This document shows positions 3,645 through 64,000 of a DNA stretch of 64,000 bases, one piece after another. The translations under genes were made by a program, and so were the position numbers. The DNA is from Longimicrobiales bacterium (GTDB taxonomy: Bacteria > Gemmatimonadota > Gemmatimonadetes > Longimicrobiales > Gaopeijiaceae): NCBI GenBank assembly GCA_029245345.1, contig JAQWPM010000012.1:310001-374000 (forward strand), given 5' to 3'. Numbering within the stretch: position 1 is the stretch's first letter; every line of letters begins with the position of its first letter. The notes under the pieces are model-generated. The model was not told the DNA's origin, did no database searches, and worked only from the letters and a program-made list of their open reading frames with translations.

Positions 3645-6600
3645 CTACCAGCTCTCGATCTTGTCCTGAGCTGTGAAGAACAGCACTCGTTCCTTCACGG
3701 GATCACCGGTCAGACGGGTCCAAGCCTCCGCATAGAGATCGACTTGGCGGCGATACGCATCCACACGTGTGCCGAAGTCGGGGTCGGTGCCGACGTCAGT
3801 CTTATAGTCCGCGATGACCCAGCCACCCTTCTCGCGGAACGCGAGATCGATGACACCTTCCAGGATCTCTGGAACGTCCGACTCCTCTTTTTGCTCCCGC
3901 GCCGGAGATGGTGCTTCGATCGCCATCCCAAAGAGGTCCAGCTGTTTTTTCCCCTTGGTGAGCTCTGTCGCTTCCACGGGGGGCTGCTCGGCGGCGGTCT
4001 CGCGCACATGGACAACGGAGAACGGCACCTCGGCTAAGACCTTGTCCGCAGCTTGTGCACGCGCCCACAACTTCGAAGCGAACACCTTTTCCACCACGGC
4101 CAACAGTTCCATCAATTCAGTGGGGTCACCGTGGTCATCCTTCGGACGCTCGTAGTCGATCAGCAGATCACGACACACCACCCGAAGCGCTTCTGACGAC
4201 ACGCCCGCTGCCGCTGCGGCGAGCGCCCCGTGGACGGCACTCCCCCATGAAAATCCTCGAAATGCTCCGCGGGGCACAGCTTCCCCAGATGGAACGTCCG
4301 AAGTCGCGTGGGATGGATCTCCTTTGGCGATTTCGGTCACCGATCGGTGCCTGAACGACGGCGCTCTCAGTTCCTCCAAGCGAAGCTGCGCTGCTTCCGC
4401 CGCGGCATGCGCGTCCTCTGGAGACAGATCGACAACATCGGGTTCGGGCGGCTCGACCGCGAACAGCCGTAGCTCTTCGGCCCGTTCGTCCAGCCACCCG
4501 TCCAGCGCCCTCCACGGCGACCGGCCTGGTCCCCCGGGCCAACGGGCCACCAGCAACTCTTTCTTCGCACGCGTAGCGGCTACGTACAGCAGGCGCACCT
4601 CCTCCGCCGCTTCGAAACCACGCTCCTTCGCATCCTTCTCATCCCAACCCTCCGGGAGCGCGAGAACCTGGTCGCCTCCCCAGCCTCCGCGCGATTCGGT
4701 CACGCGCAGATAACCCAGGGCCGTGCCGTCCTCGCCTCGGCTCATGTGAATTTCAGGATTTCTGGCCCGAGCCCCGGTCGGGTCCGCGAGCACGACGACT
4801 TCTGCCTCAAGCCCCTTCGCCTGATGCAGATTCATGAGTCGCACCACATCAGGCCTTCCAGGCTCAAGCGGTGCCTCAGCCTCGGAAAGATCGAGGGCGG
4901 CGCGCAGGGCCTCGAGAGCACCGGGCAAGGAGGCGTCTCCGGCCAGCGCAGCCGCCCGCACCGCGTCCAGGGCGTAGAGCAACGCCCCAGCGCGTAACGA
5001 GCCAAGGTCACCTGCCGCGGCGAAGGGCAGAAGGCCGAGTTCGCTGGTCACACGAGAGACGAACACGTCGGCTGGTCCGGTACTGGCCGCTCTCCACCAG
5101 ACACCCAATACCTCGAGCGCGGCATCCACGTCGGGGTGCCCGCCACCCCGAGGTCGAATAATTTCGAAGGCGCCACCCGCCAAACGGTGTTGGACCAAAC
5201 GTTCGTAATCGATGCCGAAAAACAGCCCGACCAAGACAGCCAGTACCTTCACTGGATTCGTCGGGTCGATCATACATTCCAGCAACGCTTGGAGTTCGCG
5301 GAGCTCCTGCTCGACTCCGACACCGGCTCCGGTGACTTGCACGGGAACGGAGTGCCCTTCGAGCGCTCTGGCGTAGACTGCGATGTTCGAACGCAGACGT
5401 GTGAGAATCAGGAAGTCACCAGCAGTGCGCTCACCGGAGGCCAGCCGTTCGGCGATCCAAGTCGCGATGCGACCCGCATCGTCTTCAGCCGCACCCCGAT
5501 TCGTTCTTCCTTCCGGAGCGATGGCGTACCAAAAGACCCCGTCCGGCTCATCGTTCTGGGGAGGCCGTGTGTTGAGCGGCTCGAACGAAGCTTGCTCCGG
5601 CGTAGCCTCAGGAGGAAAGAACCCCTCCTCTTGGAACAACTCGTTCACGAGATCCCCAATGGGAGGGCGTGAACGAAAGTTCGTGGTAAGCTCCAGCACG
5701 TCCCCGAAGTCCCGAAAACGGTCCTTCACGAAGCCATAAAGCTGGATGTCCGCGCGGCGGAAGCGGTAGATGCTTTGTTTGGGATCCCCCACCACGAAAA
5801 GAGCTCCCTCCCGCGGCGCGACAGACCTCCAATCCGTGGTGAGCGGCGGCTCATCACCTTCCGGCTCCTCCTCATTCGGCTCGGAGGCGAGGAGCAGCAT
5901 GATCTCGGCCTGGAGTGGATCGGTGTCTTGGAACTCGTCGATCAGAATCCGGCGGTATCGGCGCCCTAACTGTTTTCTGACATCGTTGTTTCCGCGCAGA
6001 AGATCCGCCGTGAGCACCAGCAGGTCCTGGAAGTCGAGCCGCCCCGTGCGCTTCCGGTGCGCCGCGAAGTCTCGCGCCGCGTGAAGGCCGAGCCGGACAG
6101 CCAGCCGATACCGGTGACCGTACCATCGGTTCACCAAACGGTGAGCCGGTGTGTCCCCGACCCCGAACGCATTCACGTTGTCGCATAGGGCCTTCGCCAA
6201 GTCCCCATCCTTCCAACGGTTCTTCGTGATCTTGTGAGGAGTCGATCCACTCTTACACAACTTGGACAGAGCATCAAAGAGCTCCGGAGGCTTCTTCCAC
6301 CCCGTGACATCGCGGGTGAAGTGGAGCGTCCGTAGCTTCTTCTGGAGAGGATCCCAACTCCGCTGTGGTTCGTGGTCCGGCATCAGCTCCCATGCGCGAT
6401 CTACGAGTTCCTCAAGCTGTCCGCAGACCTCGGTCAGCTCGGACGGTTTTGGAGAAGCCACCTCATCCGTCGGGAAGTCGACGTCGGGATTTTCGACCAA
6501 GTGATTGAAGAGCCCCCAGAGACGCGATGGCTGTAGTCCGGCATCGGACAACTCTTCGAGGATCGGGTCGGCATCGCGGACGAGCCGTTCGAGGTACGCC

Positions 6601-7061
6601 TCCCAGAAATGGCGCCGGACCCGAATTCGTTCTTCGACGGGAAGTTCCTGAAACGCCGGATCCAGACCGACTTCCAACGGACGCTCTCTAAGGAGCCGAG
6701 CGCAGAACGCGTGGATTGTCCCGATGAAAACCCGATCGATGTCATCGAGAGCCCTCGCAAGCCGCTCTCGCAGCAGATCATCACCCCCACCACCCGCTTC
6801 CTCTCGGACCCGGTGTTCGAGACGGATCTGGAAACGCTCTCGCAGCTCCGCAGCAGCTTTTCGTGTGAACGTGACGGCCGCAATTTCCTCGACCGTGGCC
6901 TTTCCGGACCCGACCAGCGCAACCATGCGAGAAACCAACTCGGTAGTCTTGCCCGAGCCGGCCCCGGCCTCCACGAGGAGATTCATCTCGAGGTCGATCG
7001 AGATGCGTTCGCGCGCGGGCGCGTCGTGAAAAGGCAGTGAAACCACTGCGTTATCGGTCAT
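3645..7061 (-). CDS. addA: AddA/RecB-like UvrD helicase with C-terminal PD-(D/E)XK nuclease
   Basis: 1138 residues from the ATG at 7061 (an in-frame start at 7106 would add 15 residues). Walker A is EAGAGSGKTTEL near residue 35, followed by the superfamily 1 motif AVTFTRKAAAELRERF. Motif II is LIDEFQDTDPLQ and a VVGDPKQSIYRFRRAD motif follows. The C-terminus carries a RecB-type nuclease core with EGVIDLAF and WVIADYKTD. These are the features of the AddA subunit of AddAB/RexAB-type double-strand-break resection enzymes. The likely partner is the AddB-like gene at 15366-18497, which is not adjacent. It lies downstream of the FHA/protease gene, whose stop is at 7114. Confidence 0.85.
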   Translation of the reverse strand: MTDNAVVSLPFHDAPARERISIDLEMNLLVEAGAGSGKTTELVSRMVALVGSGKATVEEIAAVTFTRKAAAELRERFQIRLEHRVREEAGGGGDDLLRERLARALDDIDRVFIGTIHAFCARLLRERPLEVGLDPAFQELPVEERIRVRRHFWEAYLERLVRDADPILEELSDAGLQPSRLWGLFNHLVENPDVDFPTDEVASPKPSELTEVCGQLEELVDRAWELMPDHEPQRSWDPLQKKLRTLHFTRDVTGWKKPPELFDALSKLCKSGSTPHKITKNRWKDGDLAKALCDNVNAFGVGDTPAHRLVNRWYGHRYRLAVRLGLHAARDFAAHRKRTGRLDFQDLLVLTADLLRGNNDVRKQLGRRYRRILIDEFQDTDPLQAEIMLLLASEPNEEEPEGDEPPLTTDWRSVAPREGALFVVGDPKQSIYRFRRADIQLYGFVKDRFRDFGDVLELTTNFRSRPPIGDLVNELFQEEGFFPPEATPEQASFEPLNTRPPQNDEPDGVFWYAIAPEGRTNRGAAEDDAGRIATWIAERLASGERTAGDFLILTRLRSNIAVYARALEGHSVPVQVTGAGVGVEQELRELQALLECMIDPTNPVKVLAVLVGLFFGIDYERLVQHRLAGGAFEIIRPRGGGHPDVDAALEVLGVWWRAASTGPADVFVSRVTSELGLLPFAAAGDLGSLRAGALLYALDAVRAAALAGDASLPGALEALRAALDLSEAEAPLEPGRPDVVRLMNLHQAKGLEAEVVVLADPTGARARNPEIHMSRGEDGTALGYLRVTESRGGWGGDQVLALPEGWDEKDAKERGFEAAEEVRLLYVAATRAKKELLVARWPGGPGRSPWRALDGWLDERAEELRLFAVEPPEPDVVDLSPEDAHAAAEAAQLRLEELRAPSFRHRSVTEIAKGDPSHATSDVPSGEAVPRGAFRGFSWGSAVHGALAAAAAGVSSEALRVVCRDLLIDYERPKDDHGDPTELMELLAVVEKVFASKLWARAQAADKVLAEVPFSVVHVRETAAEQPPVEATELTKGKKQLDLFGMAIEAPSPAREQKEESDVPEILEGVIDLAFREKGGWVIADYKTDVGTDPDFGTRVDAYRRQVDLYAEAWTRLTGDPVKERVLFFTAQDKIESW

Positions 7062-7113
7062 CGCGGCAATGTGGTCTCGGCAGGGGTCTGGGGGAAGGTG
7101 TCCCAAGGGCGCG

Positions 7114-15365: not shown

Positions 15366-18300
15366 TCAGTCCTCGAAGGTCCTCACTCGCTTGAGTTGGG
15401 CGAAGGCGGGCCAGAGGCCTGTGTTCAGGTGCTCTTCCGACCAGTCGGAGAGCGGCGATTCCATCTTCCCGAACGACAGCGTCCGAGAACGGCACACCTC
15501 TGAGAAATCGCAAAAGCGGCAGTCGTCCGCTCGTTCTGTCGGGACAAAGCTCCCGCTGGCTACGGTGTCCAGCATGTGTCCAACCAACGTCCCGACACCG
15601 GCCAAGGCCACTCGAGGGAATACGAACGCTTGATTCTCTCCTCGGCGCGTCGGGAAATGGTACTCTCCAGCGACGACGTCCCCACCCAAACGCTTTTCTG
15701 CCGCGAACGAGTAGAGCGCGTGTTGCAGGCGCCGACCTCCGTTGAACGCCCCGGTTCCGGCCGCGAAGTCGTGGGGCATACCCGTCTTATAGTCCACGAC
15801 GTGCACACCCTCGAGATTCTCGTCCACGCGATCGATCGCGCCCCGTAAGCGAACCTCACCTTCTTCCAACGGCATAACTACGGGATCGTCATCTCCAATC
15901 CCGAACTTCATCTCCAGCGCGACCCAAGGGGCAGTCGTTTGCCGAACCATGCGTACGAACGAGCGCACATCGTCTTCGAGCCCGGAGACCTCACGACGCT
16001 TCGCACCCTCGCCTGGCACTGGGACCTCACGCTCGAGACGTTTGACACTGGCGCCGAGCGTTTCCAGAGCGAGCGACTCGAACGCCGTGTCATCGAGTCT
16101 GAGCTTCTGCTCTCGTGCCTCACGCAGCGCGGTTTCGTAGACCTCGTGGAGCAGACCGCCTCGTCTCAACGGATCGAGCCACTTTTCTGGATCGAGTTCC
16201 GGGTCGTCGGGGGGGTAGGCCTTCAGAACCGACTTATGCAGATAACGGAGCGGGCACGTACCGAGGTCTTCCAGGCGGCTCGCAGACAAAACGAGGGCCG
16301 GATTTTGGCGGGGATCTAGTTCCGTGGGTCGTGGTTCAATTACCCCGTGGGCTGGCCCGGGGACCCCTTCCCGTCTCGCTGCTTGGGTGGTCAAGCCGGC
16401 ATCGAGTCGGCCGAAAGCCGCCCTCACGTGGTCCACGCCGCGGCGCATGACCTTGCCGGATCCCAGCGCCTTCATCCAAATGTCGTCGACATCTAGAGGC
16501 GGCCGGTCTCCGGCCGGAATGCGACACACGACACGCCCCAACTCGGCGTGAAGATCCTCGAACGTGAGGTGGCCGTCCTGCCGGACGAGCCGAAGAACCT
16601 GAAGGAGAATGGGAGAGGGACTCACCGCGCGAGCCTCGGTCGCCTTCCATGCCCCGTAGCTCAGCGTAACCTCCGCTTGGTTGATCCGGGCAAAGAGCGC
16701 AGCAAAGCCGAATACCCGCTCGCGGAGCAACTCCGATGACGTTGGGAGACCCTCTCCCAAGACTCGTCGATCGCTATCCAACAACACCGGATCCTGCACG
16801 CCCATTCCGGGAACACGCTCTGCATCCGCACCGACGATGAATACGAACGGCCGACCTGTGTATCCACCATGCTCTAGATCCGAGAGATGCATGTGGCCAC
16901 CCTCGGAAGACCACGGTGCACCGGGATCATCCGACCCACCATCCGGACTTGGAGCACGCACCCGGATCTCGAGGTAACGACGCAGGATCGTCACCGCAGC
17001 GCGGAACTCCGTCCTCCTTCGTAGTGTCGCCTCCACCCGCTCGAGAACCCGAACGACCTCGTCCCGAGCACTCCGGTCCGCACCGTCACCCTTCGGCACC
17101 CGCCGCAGAAACGCGCGCAGGCCTCGAGCGATTTCGGCAGGAGAGACCGGCCGACCTCCCTCGCCCATTCGGTCCGGAACATCGGGCGTCGCCTTCAAGG
17201 CCGGGAAGAGGATCGACTGAAGAGCTTCGAGTTCACCTTTAATCCGATCTCGCCGCCGGGTGAACACCTCTTCCGTCTCGAACTTCCCAGGCCGCATGGC
17301 TTCCACGGCTTCGATCCCGGAACGGATCTGAGTGCGATACCGCTTCCGTCCCCACCCGATCCGCAGGCTCCGGAACCGCCGAGACAACGCCGCAGCAGCG
17401 TGGCGTCCAGTAGCTTTTCGAGGCCTCAGGTCACCCGCCTCGAGGAGGCGGCGAATGGTGTGTGCCTGGAAGCCCTCTTCGATCCAATCGAGATACGCCC
17501 GCACCACCCGCCCCGGCCGCGTCCGCTCTACGGGGAGGCCGACCGCATAGGTCACCGGCAACCGCAATTGTGCGGACAACGCATGCATCGCCGAGCCGTA
17601 GGCAGCTGGATCGGGAGTCACGATCTCCACCTGATCCCAAGCGATGCCTCGTGCGGCGACCCGACGCACGACCTCCCTTAGTTCGTCCGTCACGGACGAA
17701 GCGTGGAAGAGTGACGTCTCGTTCATCTCCACATCCCCAGGACACTCATCAGGGCTATACAGATAGGAGGCCGCACCGCCTTCCGCGTGGCGATTCCACA
17801 AGACGGCGTCCGGCACCTCGAGTCCGACCACCGGATCTGTCTCCAAGACCTTCGCCCCCCGGGCCTGGAGCGCGGTCAACAGCCGTCCGGTCAATCCACG
17901 CGTGCTCAATCCGGGGAGCAGGAGAAGCTCATCCGCACCTAAGGACTCCGGCATACGAGTCCCTTCGTTTTCCAGGGCGACGAGCGCACGCTTAAAGATG
18001 GACGCTGTATCAGCCCGCCGCTCTCCCCCCAGGAGCCGCTCGTACCTTTGGAGAACGCGCAGTAGGAAGAGGCGCTTGGACCAATCGGAAAGCCGGGCCG
18101 CGTCGAGTTCTTTAGGCCCGATCCCGGACAGCCTCATCGCGATGACCGCACCATGCACTTTCTCACGAAAGCCCACGCCTTCTCCTAGATCCCCGAGCCC
18201 TGGCCCCTCACCTTTGAGGGCGGAATCAAGCGCTTCGTCCAAGAGGGCCTGCTGCTCGAACGCATCGACAATCCGAAGACTGCTCCGTTCCAGTTCTTCA

Positions 18301-18497
18301 CGCGCGAGCCGAGTCGCCAATGGACGCGTAGTCACGACCTCAAAGCCCACCCACCCCGCACGATCCAAGGAAAGGCGTCGCAGTAGCTCTCTCCCTCCAC
18401 CAAACGTCGGGGAGACGATCAGCTTGCGGGCTACCGGACGCCGCTGAGCCACTCGGGCCAGAGCTTCAACAAGGTGAGGTGCAGCGGAGGTGGTCAT
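15366..18497 (-). CDS. addB: AddB-like nuclease with 4Fe-4S cysteines
   Basis: 1043 residues from the ATG at 18497. Domain order matches AddB: an inactive helicase-like front part where Walker A has decayed to SPTFGGGRELL, then a C-terminal PD-(D/E)XK nuclease with RGAIDRVDE and VHVVDYKTGMP. One cysteine lies before the nuclease (LGTCPLRYLH) and three more near the C-terminus (DCRFCDFSEVCRSR). This is the four-cysteine layout that binds an iron-sulfur cluster and staples the AddB nuclease. It presumably pairs with the AddA-like protein at 3645-7061. It stands alone here, convergent with the dehydratase gene. Confidence 0.82.
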   Translation of the reverse strand: MTTSAAPHLVEALARVAQRRPVARKLIVSPTFGGGRELLRRLSLDRAGWVGFEVVTTRPLATRLAREELERSSLRIVDAFEQQALLDEALDSALKGEGPGLGDLGEGVGFREKVHGAVIAMRLSGIGPKELDAARLSDWSKRLFLLRVLQRYERLLGGERRADTASIFKRALVALENEGTRMPESLGADELLLLPGLSTRGLTGRLLTALQARGAKVLETDPVVGLEVPDAVLWNRHAEGGAASYLYSPDECPGDVEMNETSLFHASSVTDELREVVRRVAARGIAWDQVEIVTPDPAAYGSAMHALSAQLRLPVTYAVGLPVERTRPGRVVRAYLDWIEEGFQAHTIRRLLEAGDLRPRKATGRHAAAALSRRFRSLRIGWGRKRYRTQIRSGIEAVEAMRPGKFETEEVFTRRRDRIKGELEALQSILFPALKATPDVPDRMGEGGRPVSPAEIARGLRAFLRRVPKGDGADRSARDEVVRVLERVEATLRRRTEFRAAVTILRRYLEIRVRAPSPDGGSDDPGAPWSSEGGHMHLSDLEHGGYTGRPFVFIVGADAERVPGMGVQDPVLLDSDRRVLGEGLPTSSELLRERVFGFAALFARINQAEVTLSYGAWKATEARAVSPSPILLQVLRLVRQDGHLTFEDLHAELGRVVCRIPAGDRPPLDVDDIWMKALGSGKVMRRGVDHVRAAFGRLDAGLTTQAARREGVPGPAHGVIEPRPTELDPRQNPALVLSASRLEDLGTCPLRYLHKSVLKAYPPDDPELDPEKWLDPLRRGGLLHEVYETALREAREQKLRLDDTAFESLALETLGASVKRLEREVPVPGEGAKRREVSGLEDDVRSFVRMVRQTTAPWVALEMKFGIGDDDPVVMPLEEGEVRLRGAIDRVDENLEGVHVVDYKTGMPHDFAAGTGAFNGGRRLQHALYSFAAEKRLGGDVVAGEYHFPTRRGENQAFVFPRVALAGVGTLVGHMLDTVASGSFVPTERADDCRFCDFSEVCRSRTLSFGKMESPLSDWSEEHLNTGLWPAFAQLKRVRTFED

Positions 18498-18646
18498 CCA
18501 CTCCCGGGCGTGCGAGGTCGCGTGACGCGCCAAGATAGGTCCGGTACGCCTCGGGCGGGAGGAGGCCCGGACACGTCACATGAGAGACGGACCGCTCGTT
18601 CTATCATTGAGCGCCGATTGCTCTACCTCCCGCCACGAAGAACGCC

Positions 18647-28265: not shown

Positions 28266-28595
28266 TTAGTTCGCTTCAATCTTGGCTTCGGTCTCCCAAA
28301 GCCCCATGAAGTACTCCTCATAGCTATCGGGATTCGCCCGGTAGTCGACAAGCCAGATATCGAACGGGGGTAGCGCGACGCGACACGACAACCAGTTCGT
28401 AGCGATGCGCACCATCTCCACGTACGTGAGGTCGCCCTCGCCGCCTTCTTCTCGATAGGCCCGTTGGGCGAGCAGATAGATCTCGTCCGGACTCAGATAG
28501 AGAAGGAGATCCGCGACCTGCGCAGAGCAGTAATCGAGGTACTTGGCGCGCAGGACTTCTAGTGGTTCATCAGAACCTGTGTCGCCTGCGTCCAT
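28266..28595 (-). CDS. domain-A protein, single-domain member of an unnamed family (P1)
   Basis: 109 residues from the ATG at 28595, chosen because GGGAGGA ends 5 bases before it. An in-frame ATG at 28616 lies almost on the T tract of a terminator-like hairpin. Residues 12-100 form what I call domain A: LEVLRAKYLDYCSAQ, a helical middle, then VALPPFDIWLVDYRANPDSY. The same layout appears in the proteins at 29291 and 31070. The domain is predicted all-helical and has no obvious catalytic motif. It is the second gene after the ribbon-helix-helix gene. Function unknown. Confidence 0.7.
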   Translation of the reverse strand: MDAGDTGSDEPLEVLRAKYLDYCSAQVADLLLYLSPDEIYLLAQRAYREEGGEGDLTYVEMVRIATNWLSCRVALPPFDIWLVDYRANPDSYEEYFMGLWETEAKIEAN

Positions 28596-28617
28596 GGCGG
28601 TCCTCCCGCTGGACATG

Positions 28618-28660
28618 AAAAACCCCCCGGCCTCGCCGAGCGCGATGTCTTCCGGAGGGG
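28618..28660 (-). terminator. rho-independent terminator or attenuator between RHH gene and P1
   Basis: Read on the minus strand, a stem CCCCTCCGG pairs with CCGGGGGG across a 21-base loop and is followed by five T. It lies about 60 bases after the stop of the ribbon-helix-helix gene and its T tract ends only 22 bases before the chosen start of P1. It could end the upstream transcript or regulate read-through into P1. Confidence 0.6.
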
Positions 28661-28719
28661 TCGATCGCGCCCAAAGGTATGAACCGGAGGGCCTAATTAC
28701 GCAAGTATTTCGCGCCGTT

Positions 28720-28926
28720 TTATGAGACCGCTTGCGGGGCCTCCTGCGCGGGCGGCTGATCCTGCTCCCCTTGCTCACGTAGATGTCTGTAGATCGAACG
28801 ACGGGTTAGACCGTACAGGACGACACGGCTCAAGAACTCCGGATCGGTCTTTTGGACCTCTTCGGCCTGAGCAGCGATATCGCGCGGCAACCGCACGTTG
28901 AGCTGTACAGTACTCGTCTCCCACAT
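28720..28926 (-). CDS. ribbon-helix-helix (CopG/Arc-like) DNA-binding protein
   Basis: 68 residues from the ATG at 28926, with GAGG 7 bases upstream; the longer frame before it is not conserved-looking. A beta strand STVQLNVRLP is followed by helix RDIAAQAEEV, a short loop and helix EFLSRVVLYGLTRRSIYRHL, the RHH layout. The C-terminal tail is rich in Gln, Pro and Ala. Such proteins act as dimeric transcription repressors or antitoxins. No toxin of a known family is adjacent; the following gene is the domain-A protein P1. Its targets may include the inverted repeat at 29266-29293. Confidence 0.65.
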   Translation of the reverse strand: MWETSTVQLNVRLPRDIAAQAEEVQKTDPEFLSRVVLYGLTRRSIYRHLREQGEQDQPPAQEAPQAVS

Positions 28927-29265
28927 AGACACACCTCGCCCTAAGGTCGGAGTTGAAAAATTTGTGTTTCTTGGATACCGCCCAGATCGTGAATTAACAT
29001 GCGACGGTAACGGAGGGGAGGTGCCGGCCACCTCGTGGTGAGCAACACTCTAAAGCTACTTCTGGGGACGCGCAACCCCTTACGCCAAGAAATGCCATGA
29101 ATCCTAACTCGTTACCCCACAACAGGTTACGATTTCATTGATTTCCGTAAATCAAGTGTTCCCAAAACACATCGCAGCTTAAAATGTTCACGATTCCGTT
29201 CACGGAAGTGCAAGCGTAGCACGGAGTTTGGGAATCGACCCCTTCGCAAAATGCTCTTCAGTCCG

Positions 29266-29293
29266 TAACGCATTTTTTGCAATAAATGCGTTA
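29266..29293. promoter_or_regulatory. 10-bp inverted repeat at the P2 stop codon
   Basis: TAACGCATTT (29266-29275) and AAATGCGTTA (29284-29293) form a perfect inverted repeat with an 8-base centre; the right arm contains the P2 stop codon. On the minus strand no T tract follows, so it is not a standard terminator. It may be an RNA hairpin protecting the 3' end or an operator for the ribbon-helix-helix protein encoded just downstream. The surrounding gap 29032-29290 is AT-rich and holds no gene I can see. Confidence 0.45.
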
Positions 29294-29863
29294 TGGGAGA
29301 GTCGACCTCAAAAAGGCTTCGAGGGATGCGTTTTCGAACGCGTTGAAGCGGTCGCGGAGGTCAGAAGGGTCCGCTTCTTGGAAAATCATCGCCGTCCGGT
29401 GCACGCGCCCTGAGTCCACTTCTCGGAACGCGATGAAGCCTCGCCAGCCCGACCCATCTCGAAACGACATCAGGTGCGCCAACCACGGCTCGCCGCGATA
29501 CGAGACCGGACGCACCTCCACGGTCGCCGGCGCCTGAGCGGTCGGCGCTTCGGGAGCGTCGTCGAGATCAATGAGATGGGCGTCTGGATTCTCTAAGCGG
29601 TCTGCCTCCCACACCAGGAAGGGTGGCAGGGGCAAAAGCGACTCACAGAAGCGCGTGAGTAGGTCCAATGACTCTTCCCCAGCTACGTCGAAGCCGGCTG
29701 CCCGTGCAGCCCGCACCATGGGGCGTACCGCATCCCTGGGCATGAGATGCATCAGCTTCCCAGCCTGCCTCCGTCGATAGGCTTGATAGCGGTGACGGAG
29801 TTCCTCACGATCAGGGCCCGGAAGCCCGACGCCTTCACCTGAAGAAGGCTGATCACCGATCAC
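29291..29863 (-). CDS. two-domain unknown protein, order A-B (P2)
   Basis: 190 residues. Residues 19-100 are domain A (EELRHRYQAYRRRQ, then LLPLPPFLVWEADRLENPDA). Residues 114-190 are domain B: WLAHLMSFRDGSGWRGFIAF, then RVHRTAMIFQEAD and a final LEAFLRSTLP. Domain B also occurs at the front of the protein at 31070. A Pro/Ala-rich linker joins the domains. Its start lies 2 bases after the stop of the 295-residue gene, so the two are cotranscribed. No known enzyme motif is visible and there is no signal peptide, so it is probably cytoplasmic. Confidence 0.7.
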   Translation of the reverse strand: MIGDQPSSGEGVGLPGPDREELRHRYQAYRRRQAGKLMHLMPRDAVRPMVRAARAAGFDVAGEESLDLLTRFCESLLPLPPFLVWEADRLENPDAHLIDLDDAPEAPTAQAPATVEVRPVSYRGEPWLAHLMSFRDGSGWRGFIAFREVDSGRVHRTAMIFQEADPSDLRDRFNAFENASLEAFLRSTLP

Positions 29864-29865
29864 CG

Positions 29866-30753
29866 TTAGTGGATCGCCTGCGCGCCAGCGTCCGACGAAG
29901 CGATCCGGACGGCCTGAGCCGAGGGCTCCTGAACCTGAACCCTGCCCAACGTCTCTCGCTCTCCAAGGGTCTCGATGAGCGGCGCGAGCGAGTCGAAGCG
30001 AGCTGGCTCGAATCGGGCCATGAGGGCCGACAACCCCTTCCTCATGGCGCCAAGTCGGACCCGCGCTTCAGCAAATGAGGTCGGAAGCGCGAAACGAGCC
30101 TCATACTCGATTGAATCTGCTTCCCCGTCCGGATCGTACCGGCACAGATCGGCGGTCGGGAAGGCCTCGGTCAAGGCGTGCTCGAGTTGCGGATCCGGGT
30201 GCCGCATCGCGGTCTTGAAGACCACCGCGCATAGGTCATAGTCCAGGTAGGCTCGAGTAAGGCGCCCCGGCCCCAGAACGAAGCGGATGGACGTGCCCTC
30301 GTGGAGATCGAAGTCTCGGCAGATGTCCCTGAAGCCGATCCGCAGGAAGGTCGGGCGCGTGAGCGGACCGAAGCCGATCCTTTCCAGGATTCGTAGTCCC
30401 AGCTTTAACGCGTATCGCCGCAGCGGCTCTTCTTCCTGCGTGGACGCGGTTGCCGTGATCAGACTCGCTATGTGGTCCAGAGTGGGCTCGTAGACCCAAT
30501 CGAGAACAACGAGCTCGGTGCTGAGATCGAGCACCTTCACGCTTCCGCTCCCCAGGTCGATCACCTCCGAAGACGCGGCATACCGTCCTTCGACGACTAG
30601 AGCGAGGCCGATGTCCTCGATGCGGCCACCCGGATTGTCCATCTCATGGACATCCCGGTATTGCACCACGGCGCGCGTAAGCGGGAGCTCACAGATCCCC
30701 GGAACATCTCCCATCGCCTCGGGCCGGGCGTAGGTCTGTGCATTCGGATCCAT
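29866..30753 (-). CDS. unknown protein, first gene of a two-gene operon with P2
   Basis: 295 residues from the ATG at 30753 (MDPNAQTYARPEAMG); an upstream in-frame start at 30795 would add 14 residues. The sequence has two halves. The first (about 20-110) is strand-rich with GRYAASSEVIDLGSG and LVVLDWVYEPTLDHI. The second (about 125-270) is helical with LRILERIGFGPLTRPTFLR and SIRFVLGPGRLTRAYLDYD. I recognise no family. It has no signal peptide, membrane helix or nucleotide-binding loop. A hairpin-rich leader lies upstream (30800-30915). Its tight linkage to P2 suggests a shared role. Confidence 0.6.
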   Translation of the reverse strand: MDPNAQTYARPEAMGDVPGICELPLTRAVVQYRDVHEMDNPGGRIEDIGLALVVEGRYAASSEVIDLGSGSVKVLDLSTELVVLDWVYEPTLDHIASLITATASTQEEEPLRRYALKLGLRILERIGFGPLTRPTFLRIGFRDICRDFDLHEGTSIRFVLGPGRLTRAYLDYDLCAVVFKTAMRHPDPQLEHALTEAFPTADLCRYDPDGEADSIEYEARFALPTSFAEARVRLGAMRKGLSALMARFEPARFDSLAPLIETLGERETLGRVQVQEPSAQAVRIASSDAGAQAIH

Positions 30754-30799
30754 ATGCCTGTCTCGTCCATCGTCGGCGACCGAAAGGCTCACCAACGAT

Positions 30800-30915
30800 T
30801 TTTTGGGAAAAGAAACCCGGCTAGAAGCCGGGTCAGATAGGGTTTTCGCTGGGACGATACCCAGTAGTTACAACACTTTTTTGCATCGCGCCGTATCCGG
30901 CGGCCCTCAACGATA
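30800..30915 (-). promoter_or_regulatory. structured leader with terminator-like hairpin
   Basis: On the minus strand, upstream of the 295-residue gene, a CTGGG/CCCAG hairpin is followed by a perfect 8-bp stem ACCCGGCT/AGCCGGGT with a 3-base loop (30815-30833). The T-rich TTTCTTTT follows directly, about 50 bases before the start codon. This resembles an attenuator or riboswitch expression platform. I do not recognise a known riboswitch core in it. The gap 30754-31069 holds no gene that I can see. Confidence 0.4.
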
Positions 30916-31069
30916 ATGATATGTTTACGAAAAAGGCAAGGAAAACATATATCGGAGGGCGACCGAAGGGACTGACGCCTTGCTCCGACTTGGTCGGCCG
31001 GTCATCTTGCGGGGGCAATTCCACTGGAAGCCCGGCCCGATCTTCTGAATCCGCATTCAACACGCCTCC

Positions 31070-31816
31070 ATGACTCAAGGCAACCACATCGCTCGCGAGG
31101 CTCCTAACCGAGATCAACCGGACGTGCGGAGTGGTTCCCCAGTCAGCGAACGAAGGCGGTCCGTGGCCTTCATTGAGCGGGAAAGCGAGTCCTGGGCGTG
31201 CTTCCTAGTCACGTTCGCGGCAGGTGATGGACTCATACACGGCTACTTCTCCTTCCGCCCTGGGAGCGGAGAAGCGAACGAGGACGAGGTCCGCACGGCC
31301 GACATCTTGATCGAAGACTCCGAAGCCGAAGTTCACGAAAAGGCGCGGGGCTTGGGACGACCCCTTCTCGCTGGCCTCCTCGACTCAGCTCTGCATACGC
31401 GGAAACGAAGCGGCCGAGACGAGAGCAAACTTCGGGGTCGTTTCCGGACGCTTCTCAAAGAGAACGCTCAGGAGATCGCTGGAGATTGGTCCACTGACGC
31501 GACGATCGTGCCGAGCGGCGATGAACTGGACCAGCTGAGGTCGATGTACGCATCGTATCGCCTGGACCAGGTCTCCCACTTTATCTGCTTGGTGGACCCG
31601 ACTGACTTCGAACAGGCGGTCGACCAGATCCTAGCCGGCGAAAGCGTAGATTTTCGCGCCAGCGACAAGGTCCAGTTCGCGATGATGGTGGTGGATCACA
31701 TCGAGCGAATGTTGCCTCTCCCGGACTTCGACACCTGGGTCAGGGACTACCTGGCGAATTCCGAGGCGTACCGCCTCTATACGCATACGCTGCATCGGGA
31801 AGGGCGCCTGCCCTAG
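31070..31816 (+). CDS. two-domain unknown protein, order B-A (P3)
   Basis: 248 residues. Residues 29-110 are domain B: SWACFLVTFAAGDGLIHGYF, SFRPGSG, VRTADILIED and LLAGLLDSAL. Residues 151-243 are domain A: LDQLRSMYASYRLDQV, then LPLPDFDTWVRDYLANSEAY. The order is the reverse of that in P2. A charged linker (about 111-145) lies between. It is transcribed away from the P2 operon, and the two share a 316-base gap. There is no signal peptide, membrane segment or known catalytic motif. Function unknown. Confidence 0.7.
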   Translation: MTQGNHIAREAPNRDQPDVRSGSPVSERRRSVAFIERESESWACFLVTFAAGDGLIHGYFSFRPGSGEANEDEVRTADILIEDSEAEVHEKARGLGRPLLAGLLDSALHTRKRSGRDESKLRGRFRTLLKENAQEIAGDWSTDATIVPSGDELDQLRSMYASYRLDQVSHFICLVDPTDFEQAVDQILAGESVDFRASDKVQFAMMVVDHIERMLPLPDFDTWVRDYLANSEAYRLYTHTLHREGRLP

Positions 31817-60958: not shown

Positions 60959-62802
60959 ACCGACGGCCCTGATGACCCGTCGAACTGAAGTTCGTAGAGC
61001 CGACGATACAGGCCATTTAACGCCAACAACGAGATGTGGTCGCCTCGTTCGACGATCCGGCCACCATCCATCACCAGGATCTGGTCAGCAGACTGTACCG
61101 TCGAAATTCGGTGTGCGATAACGAATACCGTGCGGCCCTCGACAAGTCGCTCGATCGCGTCCTGGATCAACCTCTCGGACTCGGTATCGAGCGAACTCGT
61201 GGCCTCGTCAAAGATGAGGATGGGCGGGTCCCTAAGGAGCGCCCGAGCGATAGCGATACGCTGGCGCTGCCCCCCAGAAAGCTCGACGCCACGTTCGCCC
61301 ACTACCGTGTCGTAACCATCGGTCATGTCCGAGACAAAGCCGTGGGCGTGTGCCGCCTTCGCAGCATCGACGATGGACTCTTCCGTAGCCTCGGGGCGGC
61401 CATACGCAATGTTGGCCCTGACCGTATCGTGGAAGAGCACCGTCTCTTGAGACACGATGCCCATGAGACCCCTGAGCTCCGCCATCCGCACGTCTTTGAT
61501 GTCGGTCCCGTCGATCATGATGCGCCCGGAGGACACCTCGAAAAAGCGCGCTAAAAGATCGACGAGCGTCGACTTTCCGGCTCCGCTCGGACCGACCAAC
61601 GCAACGACTTCTCCCCGACTCACGGAAAAGGAGACGTCGGACAGAACGGACTCACCCGCCCCGTAGGCGAATCCGACATCCTCGAAGACAACGGCTTCGG
61701 AGAAACCCGCGATCGGCTTCGCGTCTGGAGAGTCCGTAATCTCTGCAGGGGCATCCAAGAACTCGAAGACCCGCTCGGCGGCGATGAGTCCGGGCTGAGC
61801 CGTGGCCGGGAACTTGGCCACGTTCTTCACGGGCGAGTAGAGTTTCATGGACAGCCCGAGGAAACCGACGAATTCCGGGCCGGTGATGTCTCCAGCAATC
61901 ACGAGACGAGCTCCGAACCAGAGAAGAATCACGGTCCCGGCGGCGGCCAACATCTCGGTCATAGGCGCCGCGGCGGCTCGGGCAAATTCGGCCCGAAGGA
62001 AGTGGCGATAATACTCTGACGTCAGGCCGCGGAATCGCTCCTTCTCCCGCCTTTCTGCCGACGAGGATTTCACGAGTCGGATCCCCGCGAGGGTCTCTTG
62101 AACGTGCCCATTCACCTCACCACCTAGGTGCAGCACGCGACGATCTCGCTTTCTCAGCACGTTCACGAGCGGGCCCCAGATAATCATGGCTCCTGGGATC
62201 ACGATGAATGCCGCCGCCGTGAGCTTCCATGAAATGAGAAGCATGGCCAATAGTGCGACACCGAATTCAAAAACTGCGGAGAGCAGCTTCGAGGACTCGG
62301 CAGTCACGAGCGTGCGCACCTGCTCGACCTCTGTGGTCAGACGGCTGACGATCTGGCCCATGCGGACCCGACCGAAGAACGAAAGATCGAGCTCGACCAA
62401 GTGATCGTAGACTTGGTCGCGAACGTCTCGGTTCACGCCCTGCTCCGCTCTCGCAACCAGATAGGTACGCGTGAAGTGAAAGACGTTCTTCACCGCGAAG
62501 ACGATGATGATCAGCACGATGATCCGTCCGATCGCGACAAGGGGGTCCCCGGACAAATCGACGTACCGGTAGACGGTCGCATCCAGGAGCCGCTCCATGC
62601 CGGTCCCGGTAGACGTCACCACCCCACCTCCACTCAAGAAGAGCGCCGAGATGAACGGAATCAGCAGGATGTAGACGGACGCGTCGAGCACCGCAAAAGC
62701 CGCCGTCGCCACAATGGCTACGGCGAGAACACCCGCGTGAGGCTTGAGAAATGCGAGGATGCGGAGGTAGGTGGATCCGCCCGCGGTCGGGGCCAGGTTC
62801 AT
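60955..62802 (-). CDS. MsbA-like lipid ABC transporter
   Basis: 615 residues with a membrane domain of about six helices (1-330) fused to an ATPase domain. Walker A is VGPSGAGKSTLVDLL (Lys410), the signature LSGGQRQRIAIARAL near 515 and Walker B ILIFDEATSSLD near 535. The layout and length match MsbA, which flips lipid A across the inner membrane as a homodimer. The gene lies between the PglZ protein and the LpxL-like acyltransferase with 4-base overlaps on both sides, consistent with lipid A export. Confidence 0.9.
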   Translation of the reverse strand: MNLAPTAGGSTYLRILAFLKPHAGVLAVAIVATAAFAVLDASVYILLIPFISALFLSGGGVVTSTGTGMERLLDATVYRYVDLSGDPLVAIGRIIVLIIIVFAVKNVFHFTRTYLVARAEQGVNRDVRDQVYDHLVELDLSFFGRVRMGQIVSRLTTEVEQVRTLVTAESSKLLSAVFEFGVALLAMLLISWKLTAAAFIVIPGAMIIWGPLVNVLRKRDRRVLHLGGEVNGHVQETLAGIRLVKSSSAERREKERFRGLTSEYYRHFLRAEFARAAAAPMTEMLAAAGTVILLWFGARLVIAGDITGPEFVGFLGLSMKLYSPVKNVAKFPATAQPGLIAAERVFEFLDAPAEITDSPDAKPIAGFSEAVVFEDVGFAYGAGESVLSDVSFSVSRGEVVALVGPSGAGKSTLVDLLARFFEVSSGRIMIDGTDIKDVRMAELRGLMGIVSQETVLFHDTVRANIAYGRPEATEESIVDAAKAAHAHGFVSDMTDGYDTVVGERGVELSGGQRQRIAIARALLRDPPILIFDEATSSLDTESERLIQDAIERLVEGRTVFVIAHRISTVQSADQILVMDGGRIVERGDHISLLALNGLYRRLYELQFDGSSGPSV

Positions 62803-64000
62803 CGCCTTGGGGTCAGGCTCGCCACGGGGACAATCATTTCTTCCGGACTGATGCCACCGTGAAGAAACGAATTCCGGTAACGCGCCTGATATTCCCTGAG
62901 CTTCGTCGGGTAGACGAAGAAAAAGTCCTCGACAGCCAGCAGGTACATCATGCCCAACTTCCCAGCGGGAATCCGTAGGTGTTTCTCGTCAGAGGTCGAG
63001 AAAACCGTTGACGACACCTCTGCCCGCAGGTCCTGTCCGAACTTGTAGCGTAGGTTGCTCGTCGCGTCGCGCCGGGCGAACACCGTGGTCGGGTGCTGGC
63101 ACAGAATGGATCCGTGATCCGTGGTGAGGATCACATGGTGGCCTTGCCGCGAAGCCGCCTTCAATACCTCGAAGGCGGTCGATCGCTCGAACCAGGAGCG
63201 GGTCAGATCCCGGAGAGCAGCTTCATCCCGGGCCACTTCCATTAGGATGGGCGACTCCGAGCGGCCGTGTGTCATGAGGTCCACGAAGTTGAAGACCATC
63301 GCGATCACAGCACCCGGCTTCTTGAGCGCGGACTTCACACGCGCCCTGACCTGCTCGCCCTGCCGGTCCGAAAAAATCTTCTCGTAATGCACATGCACGT
63401 CGCGGCCCGTGATACGCCTCAATTGCTCGAAGAGGAGCTTGTCTTCGAACGCATTCAGTGAGCCTTCGTCGTCCGACTGATCCCACCATTCAGGTCGCTT
63501 CTTGGCGATCTCATCCGCGTATTGGCCAGAGAAAATGGCGTTGCGGGCATAGGGCGTCGCGGTAGGCAAGATCGAGTAGTGGTACGTCTCCTCAATCTCG
63601 AAGTACTCCGTCAAGAGTGGCGCGATCACTCTCCACTGATCCAAGCGCATGCAGTCCAACACGACGAAGTACACCGGATCCGAGCCAAGTCGCGGTACGA
63701 GGAACTCGCGGACCAGGTCGACAGACAAGCGAGGTCGATCTTCAGAGCCCGCCATCCAACGCGCGTAATGATCAATGACCCACACGCCGAAGTCACGTCT
63801 CAGATCGTCCATCATGGACCGAACGGTATCGAGCAGACCGTCTTCCCCAGCCTCTCCGAGCGAAATGTGCCAATCCGTCAGTTCGGTGAAGACGCGCGCG
63901 AAGTCGTCCGCCGTGCGGGCGTCCTCACGCAGTGTCGAGAGCCGCCCGAAGCGGGCGGCGAAGTCCTGCGCCACACGCTGTTGGCGGATTGAAGACCCCT
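62799..64000 (-). CDS. PglZ-domain protein, C-terminal part (partial)
   Basis: The frame is open to the right edge without a stop, so the gene starts beyond the window; the GTG at 63974 is probably internal. At least 399 residues are visible. The alkaline-phosphatase-fold PglZ domain shows FVVLDCMRLDQWRV, with a metal-binding Asp. Further in, YSILPTATPYARNAIFSGQY (with the catalytic Thr region), FNFVDLMTH and ILTTDHGSILCQHP follow. Related full-length proteins carry a response-regulator receiver domain at the front; whether this one does cannot be seen. It overlaps the ABC transporter start by 4 bases. Confidence 0.8.
   Translation of the reverse strand, partial: GSSIRQQRVAQDFAARFGRLSTLREDARTADDFARVFTELTDWHISLGEAGEDGLLDTVRSMMDDLRRDFGVWVIDHYARWMAGSEDRPRLSVDLVREFLVPRLGSDPVYFVVLDCMRLDQWRVIAPLLTEYFEIEETYHYSILPTATPYARNAIFSGQYADEIAKKRPEWWDQSDDEGSLNAFEDKLLFEQLRRITGRDVHVHYEKIFSDRQGEQVRARVKSALKKPGAVIAMVFNFVDLMTHGRSESPILMEVARDEAALRDLTRSWFERSTAFEVLKAASRQGHHVILTTDHGSILCQHPTTVFARRDATSNLRYKFGQDLRAEVSSTVFSTSDEKHLRIPAGKLGMMYLLAVEDFFFVYPTKLREYQARYRNSFLHGGISPEEMIVPVASLTPRR

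Follow-up and report, generated by a model that had tools for sequence, protein, structure and literature searches.

A conserved gene cluster of Gemmatimonadota carrying two recurrent, uncatalogued protein domains in permuted arrangements

A short block of genes in a Longimicrobiales genome raises the question of whether its small proteins are unrelated hypotheticals or parts of one system, and if the latter, of what kind. The window, the whole 64,000-nucleotide stretch of DNA that was analysed (assembly GCA_029245345.1, contig JAQWPM010000012.1, positions 310,001 to 374,000), contains at 28266-31816 five genes, all located where an earlier reading made from the sequence alone (the sequence-only reading) had placed them. 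Four are transcribed leftwards: P1 (28266-28595; 109 aa, domain A alone, traced by ortholog searches), a regulator gene (28720-28926; 68 aa) assigned by pattern only to the ribbon-helix-helix (RHH) type, P2 (29291-29863; 190 aa, domain order A-B) and P4 (29866-30753; 295 aa, characterized by an AlphaFold model and weak Foldseek matches). The fifth, P3 (31070-31816; 248 aa, order B-A, studied by ortholog alignment and AlphaFold), is transcribed rightwards. The reading that we favor, at a probability of about 0.4, is that the cluster is a phylum-specific, vertically inherited, autoregulated and non-catalytic protein-interaction or regulatory module, with P4 as its chaperone or scaffold.

Domain A spans approximately residues 13-103 of P1 (28287-28559, leftwards), residues 19-98 of P2 (29570-29809, leftwards) and residues 150-245 of P3 (31517-31804, rightwards), and domain B spans residues 114-190 of P2 (29294-29524, leftwards) and 29-112 of P3 (31154-31405, rightwards). 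The proposals that A is common to all three proteins and that B is common to P2 and P3 in reversed order are both borne out by hhalign comparisons of ortholog profiles, with A matching at a probability of 98-99% and E 1e-14 to 1e-20 (P1A-P2A 98.5%, E 3.8e-15; P1A-P3A 98.1%, E 7e-14; P2A-P3A 99.3%, E 4e-20) and B at 98.7% (E 4e-16). Cross pairs of A with B are all at noise level (4.5% or less), and column-shuffled controls reach a maximum of 6.8%. A single-sequence P2 search of the window's own genome already recovers P1 and P3 (E 0.001-0.002). AlphaFold models P3 as two separate folds with moderate overall confidence (mean pLDDT 79.7, pTM 0.60), domain B as b-b-b-(b)-a-a at residues 28-113 and domain A as all-alpha at residues 151-244; the segments assigned to A or to B did not resolve into unrelated folds, nor did they fall into different known families. 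Judged by these profile comparisons, both A and B are genuine domains that recur. Domain trees give clean P1, P2 and P3 clades for both, and P2A is sister to P3A with a support of 0.91; the A domains of the A-B and B-A proteins therefore diverged from each other more recently than from that of P1. Among the conserved positions are K-Y-x-D-[YFW]-C-S, invariant in most P1 orthologs, and W, G, F, R, T and E residues in domain B, where the motif described as W-x5-F is actually spaced W-x6-F and the proposed F-x-FR does not hold in its strict form in P2, which has [YF]-[FI]-x-F-R instead.

Database searches gave no names to these proteins. The five cluster proteins returned nothing beyond noise from Pfam and NCBIfam at E values up to 1 and no matches from PHROGs and PADLOC, domains A and B had no matches in the PDB, and the P3 fold had no significant match in the PDB or BFVD. 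By the sequence evidence, then, A and B are covered by no named family in the libraries searched; a small putative regulator followed by a partner gene is an arrangement of a known kind, and the novelty lies in the partners and in how they are shuffled. A literature search of partial coverage turned up no description of this cluster.

The genes are organized as gyrB-recF-ECH-ssb-P1-'RHH'-P2-P4<>P3-rpsU, and this block is syntenic across dozens of Gemmatimonadota genomes. Among 94 loci that hold the regulator (some species being present twice), 92 have the regulator gene next to P1 on the same strand. Wherever ssb is visible (79 loci), it is no more than 2 kb from P1; P3 is within 1.2 kb of rpsU in 72/80, and P3 and P4 are on opposite strands in 81/81, so that the suggested conservation between ssb and rpsU is supported. 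By these counts the adjacent 'RHH'-P1 pair forms the conserved core. Divergence correlates with that of gyrB (Spearman 0.85 for P1 and 0.92 for P4), and because it tracks gyrB, the sequence comparisons indicate that the cluster is vertically inherited. Synteny and gyrB-tracking divergence together support the view that this is a dedicated small system and not a set of random hypotheticals. Searches of phage, plasmid and viral contigs with P3 and P1 found none. A phage or defence origin was also considered and rejected, given this absence and the lack of PHROGs or PADLOC matches.

The core pair could be read as a chromosomal type II toxin-antitoxin system, with the RHH-like protein as antitoxin, P1 as toxin, and P2 and P3 as derived immunity or toxin copies. 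The gene order and sizes (a regulator of about 60-75 aa, then a partner of about 110 aa) fit this explanation, as do the 92/94 adjacency and a dyad at the promoter, but the pair is present nearly universally and at a single locus in the family, its divergence follows gyrB, it was not seen on the mobile elements searched, none of the proteins matches a toxin family in Pfam, NCBIfam or PADLOC, and domain A is elsewhere fused to a methyltransferase-like domain with no RHH gene nearby. The sporadic, mobile distribution that is typical of toxin-antitoxin systems, if not strictly defining, is not that of the cluster, and we regard this explanation as improbable.

Beyond the immediate family, the domains recur in several arrangements (families are designated f1, f2 and so on, as labelled by the search tool). 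P2 or related A/B matches are present in 104 of 146 genomes of the order. A contig scan with the P3 alignment yielded 69 loci, several of them cut off by contig ends, and essentially all carry the label Gemmatimonadetes/Gemmatimonadota, Gemmatimonadales or Longimicrobiales; 42 of these keep the complete order P1-RHH-P2-P4<>P3, and most others nearly so. The same scan using P2 alone returned zero loci. Outside the phylum, the analysis covered the P3 contig scan plus the searches of phage, plasmid and viral sequences. One cluster contig (locus L103) is labelled Gammaproteobacteria (isolate Ww582) and is probably a mislabelled or misbinned metagenome-assembled contig. P1 is found in nearly every f1 genome and in sister families by a phylum-wide search, and the adjacent RHH-P1 pair is also present at f2, f3, f7 and f9 loci, standing alone in some f1 genera. 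P2 is broken or missing in several lineages, and we note fragments or copies with in-frame stops (L098, L118; genomes G064, G075) that suggest a decaying gene in some of them.

In f7, the operon consists of RHH, A and B as three separate genes, the B protein being 83-101 aa, and f9 and f1 genomes, the window's own among them (G000:C24:56369), encode a free B protein elsewhere, about 82-113 aa long. Because one lineage has A and B fused and another has them side by side, they are best described, by this Rosetta-stone argument from gene content, as shuffled modules that probably work together. As separate observations, with gene names assigned by eye, the free B gene (L074:6355-6652, leftwards; L149-L152, L165-L168) frequently neighbors a pair of ABC transporter genes and an operon of transglutaminase/DUF58-like type, and in the window's genome it also adjoins SCO1-like and copper-chaperone-like genes.

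In f4-f6, domain A forms the N-terminus of 260-300-aa proteins with a methyltransferase-like C-terminus, and no RHH gene is nearby; this family spans loci L169-L178, occupying about 1.4-2.3 kb in each. These fusions raise the idea of a modification or sensory module, in which A targets a methyltransferase-like enzyme and P1, P2 and P3 are non-enzymatic members of the pathway. The window cluster has no methyltransferase, however, and the C-terminal matches lie under the Pfam cut-off (Methyltransf_25 at best, E 2.7e-5) and may represent degenerate domains, which makes such a role rather doubtful for the cluster.

Returning to the module that we favor, its autoregulatory component is suggested by the region upstream of the regulator gene. 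In an alignment inspected by eye, the small protein shows the pattern of an amphipathic N-terminal strand, T-V-Q-L-N-V-R-L-P, followed by two helices. Its gene has a leader of near-constant length (median 380 bp where P2 is present), in which searches for RNA gave no Rfam match at gathering score and otherwise noise. The leftwards RHH-P1 promoter includes a -10-like element, TAGAGT (29047-29052; TAnnnT is conserved in relatives), and, 17 bp away, a -35-like element, TTGCGC (29070-29075). Among 75 non-redundant relatives, TTGCG is found between -160 and -125 in 65, compared with 4.9% of shuffles. About 60 bp further upstream than this element is a putative operator, a 23-bp dyad with the consensus AAGTCGTT-N7-AACGACTT some 200-210 bp upstream of the RHH gene, of which the window carries the degenerate copy AACCTGTT-N7-AACGAGTT (29106-29128, leftwards). 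The best dyad match falls within the same 36-nt zone in 67/75 relatives, and 1.4% of shuffles score 11 or more in that zone. In its strict form the dyad occurs in 5 of 58 family genomes, once in each, with a control pattern giving none, and four of the five (G089, G068, G043 and G057, the fifth being G387) are placed at the RHH promoter by their coordinates; a strict search of the window's own genome found none, because its copy is degenerate. An operator-like dyad is thus present at the RHH-like gene's own promoter, and the protein that binds it is putative. The divergent promoter region between P4 and P3 (30754-31069) contains the conserved series ACGATAACnATnTGTTTAC...GCAAG...CTTGC...CATCTT in the alignment of relatives, and we also observed CTTGC elements on both strands together with a TGTTTAC motif.

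P4 is predicted to contain a fold like that of YbjN and type III secretion (T3S) chaperones (residues 133-263; 29965-30357, leftwards). The AlphaFold model is of good quality (pLDDT 86.2, pTM 0.82), and in it residues 133-248 run a-b-b-b-a-b-b-a by DSSP, the topology shared by DR1245, YbjN and class I T3S chaperones (PMC3575483); ExsC, YbjN, AmyR, SigE and Spa15 recur among the top 50 Foldseek matches, none of them individually significant. Proteins of this type are thought to work through protein-protein contact (PMC5398634). At its C-terminus P4 ends, after a variable linker, in Ile-His (29869-29874, leftwards), a [VI]H-COOH tail conserved in relatives: all 64 end in His, those that lack P2 included, and the penultimate residue is Val or Ile in 63/64 and Ala in one. 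Because the His is invariant with both codons in use (CAC 35, CAT 29), the alignment indicates that the tail is under protein-level constraint, and we note that it is a possible new C-terminal short linear motif. P4 was found in f1 and in one f2 genome, and within f1, P2 or P3 is present in 49 of 53 P4-positive and 0 of 9 P4-negative genomes (Fisher p 4e-8; counts tabulated by hand, phylogenetically non-independent, with about four P4-lacking lineages).

The predicted fold opens two further explanations. In one, a structural or secretion assembly has A and B among its subunits and P4 as its type-III-type chaperone, which agrees with the class I chaperone-like topology and with the occurrence of f1 P2 and P3 only alongside P4; but no secretion genes were recognized nearby, and the YbjN branch of this fold works without secretion (PMC5398634), so that we consider it very unlikely. 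In the other, the cluster is an accessory system for single-stranded DNA or recombination, in which B is a nucleic-acid-binding b-b-b-a domain (dsRBD/Rad52-like) and P4, a DR1245-like chaperone, acts with SSB, RecF and gyrase. The strict f1 neighborhood with ssb, recF and gyrB points in this direction, and there is a precedent in the Deinococcus YbjN-like protein DR1245, which binds the SSB-like annealing protein DdrB (PMC3575483). Several structural matches of P3 are to dsRBD, Rad52, RecT and DUF932 proteins, but all are low-ranking and insignificant (E above 0.02, TM 0.1-0.2), those of domain B to a dsRBD/Rad52-like fold are at noise level, and its conserved residues are not clearly nucleic-acid-binding. 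Moreover, ssb was not found next to the RHH-P1 pair at the f3, f7 and f9 loci read, so the ssb neighborhood may be incidental, and this second explanation is also unlikely.

For the protein-interaction and regulatory module, the parts could fit together as follows. The RHH-like protein, alone or bound to P1, would sit on the dyad and control its own transcription; P2 and P3 would offer alternative A domains, competing against P1 for either the regulator or its partner, and their A/B fusions may bridge partners of the regulator pair, with domain B as a second interaction surface; P4 would serve P2 and P3 as chaperone or scaffold and would dock to a partner through its [VI]H tail.

Several points weigh against this scheme, whose interactions and dyad binding are ones that we infer. 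The RHH label given by the sequence-only reading stands as a strand-plus-two-helices pattern and lacks profile support: no RHH family was found in a Pfam scan of 20 regulator members, a PDB profile search with the regulator gave no RHH chain, and hhalign against a small NikR/CopG/RelB set, a comparison of low power, was at noise level. The likely transcription start is some 90 bp downstream of the dyad, an unusual spacing for a simple repressor. Most genomes carry a degenerate dyad that the strict pattern misses, and the strict counts therefore show the rarity of perfect sites and not the absence of a regulon; there may be a wider regulon made up of weaker sites. The Foldseek matches of P4 have E values of 0.05-0.3 (0.056 at best for this class), so the fold is a suggestion and not a membership, and a Pfam scan of 61 P4 members gave no YbjN match. 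The non-independence of the co-occurrence counts counts here too, and in the sister family f2, P3 is present without P4.

More tentatively, A and B may be new families that found a core Gemmatimonadota regulatory system different from the kinds known so far, composed of an autoregulated DNA-binding pair, shuffled partners (A, B, A-B, B-A and A-methyltransferase) and a YbjN-like chaperone with a docking tail. The two domains have no match in the databases searched. They recur across a whole bacterial class, shuffled into either order, and the cluster holds a fixed place beside the gyrB-recF-ssb block in one large family; recurrence together with a fixed place is the profile of core physiology and not of accessory genes. 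Gemmatimonadota is a phylum with few cultured members, and the function of the cluster is open to direct test through its dyad, its defined core pair and the tail of P4.

Elsewhere in the window, two large open reading frames at 3645-7106 and 15366-18533 resemble by eye an AddA/AddB-type helicase-nuclease pair, and one at 62799-63974 resembles a PglZ/alkaline-phosphatase-type domain protein. AT-rich elements near gyrB-recF were considered as a replication origin (oriC) and this was rejected, as the window has no skew switch and DnaA-box-like sites are not in excess.

The cluster can be compared with four known systems. Like RHH autoregulated operons of the CopG, ParD, RelB and NikR type, it encodes first a small protein with, by pattern, a strand and two helices, followed by a partner gene, with a dyad at the promoter; it differs in that the regulator has no profile match to any RHH family, the dyad is far upstream, at about -200 from the start codon, and the partners are uncatalogued A and A/B proteins. 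With type II toxin-antitoxin systems it shares two small adjacent genes, the first for a putative DNA-binding protein, but it is core and vertically inherited, was not found on mobile elements and has no toxin-family homology. The class I SAM methyltransferases (Methyltransf_25) are linked to it through the fusion of domain A to such a domain in f4-f6, whereas the window proteins have no methyltransferase domain. Finally, P4 residues 133-248 share their predicted topology, and weak Foldseek matches, with YbjN and the class I T3S chaperones, but P4 has no sequence match to YbjN, carries an additional N-terminal half, ends in an invariant His, and has A/B proteins as its suggested partners.

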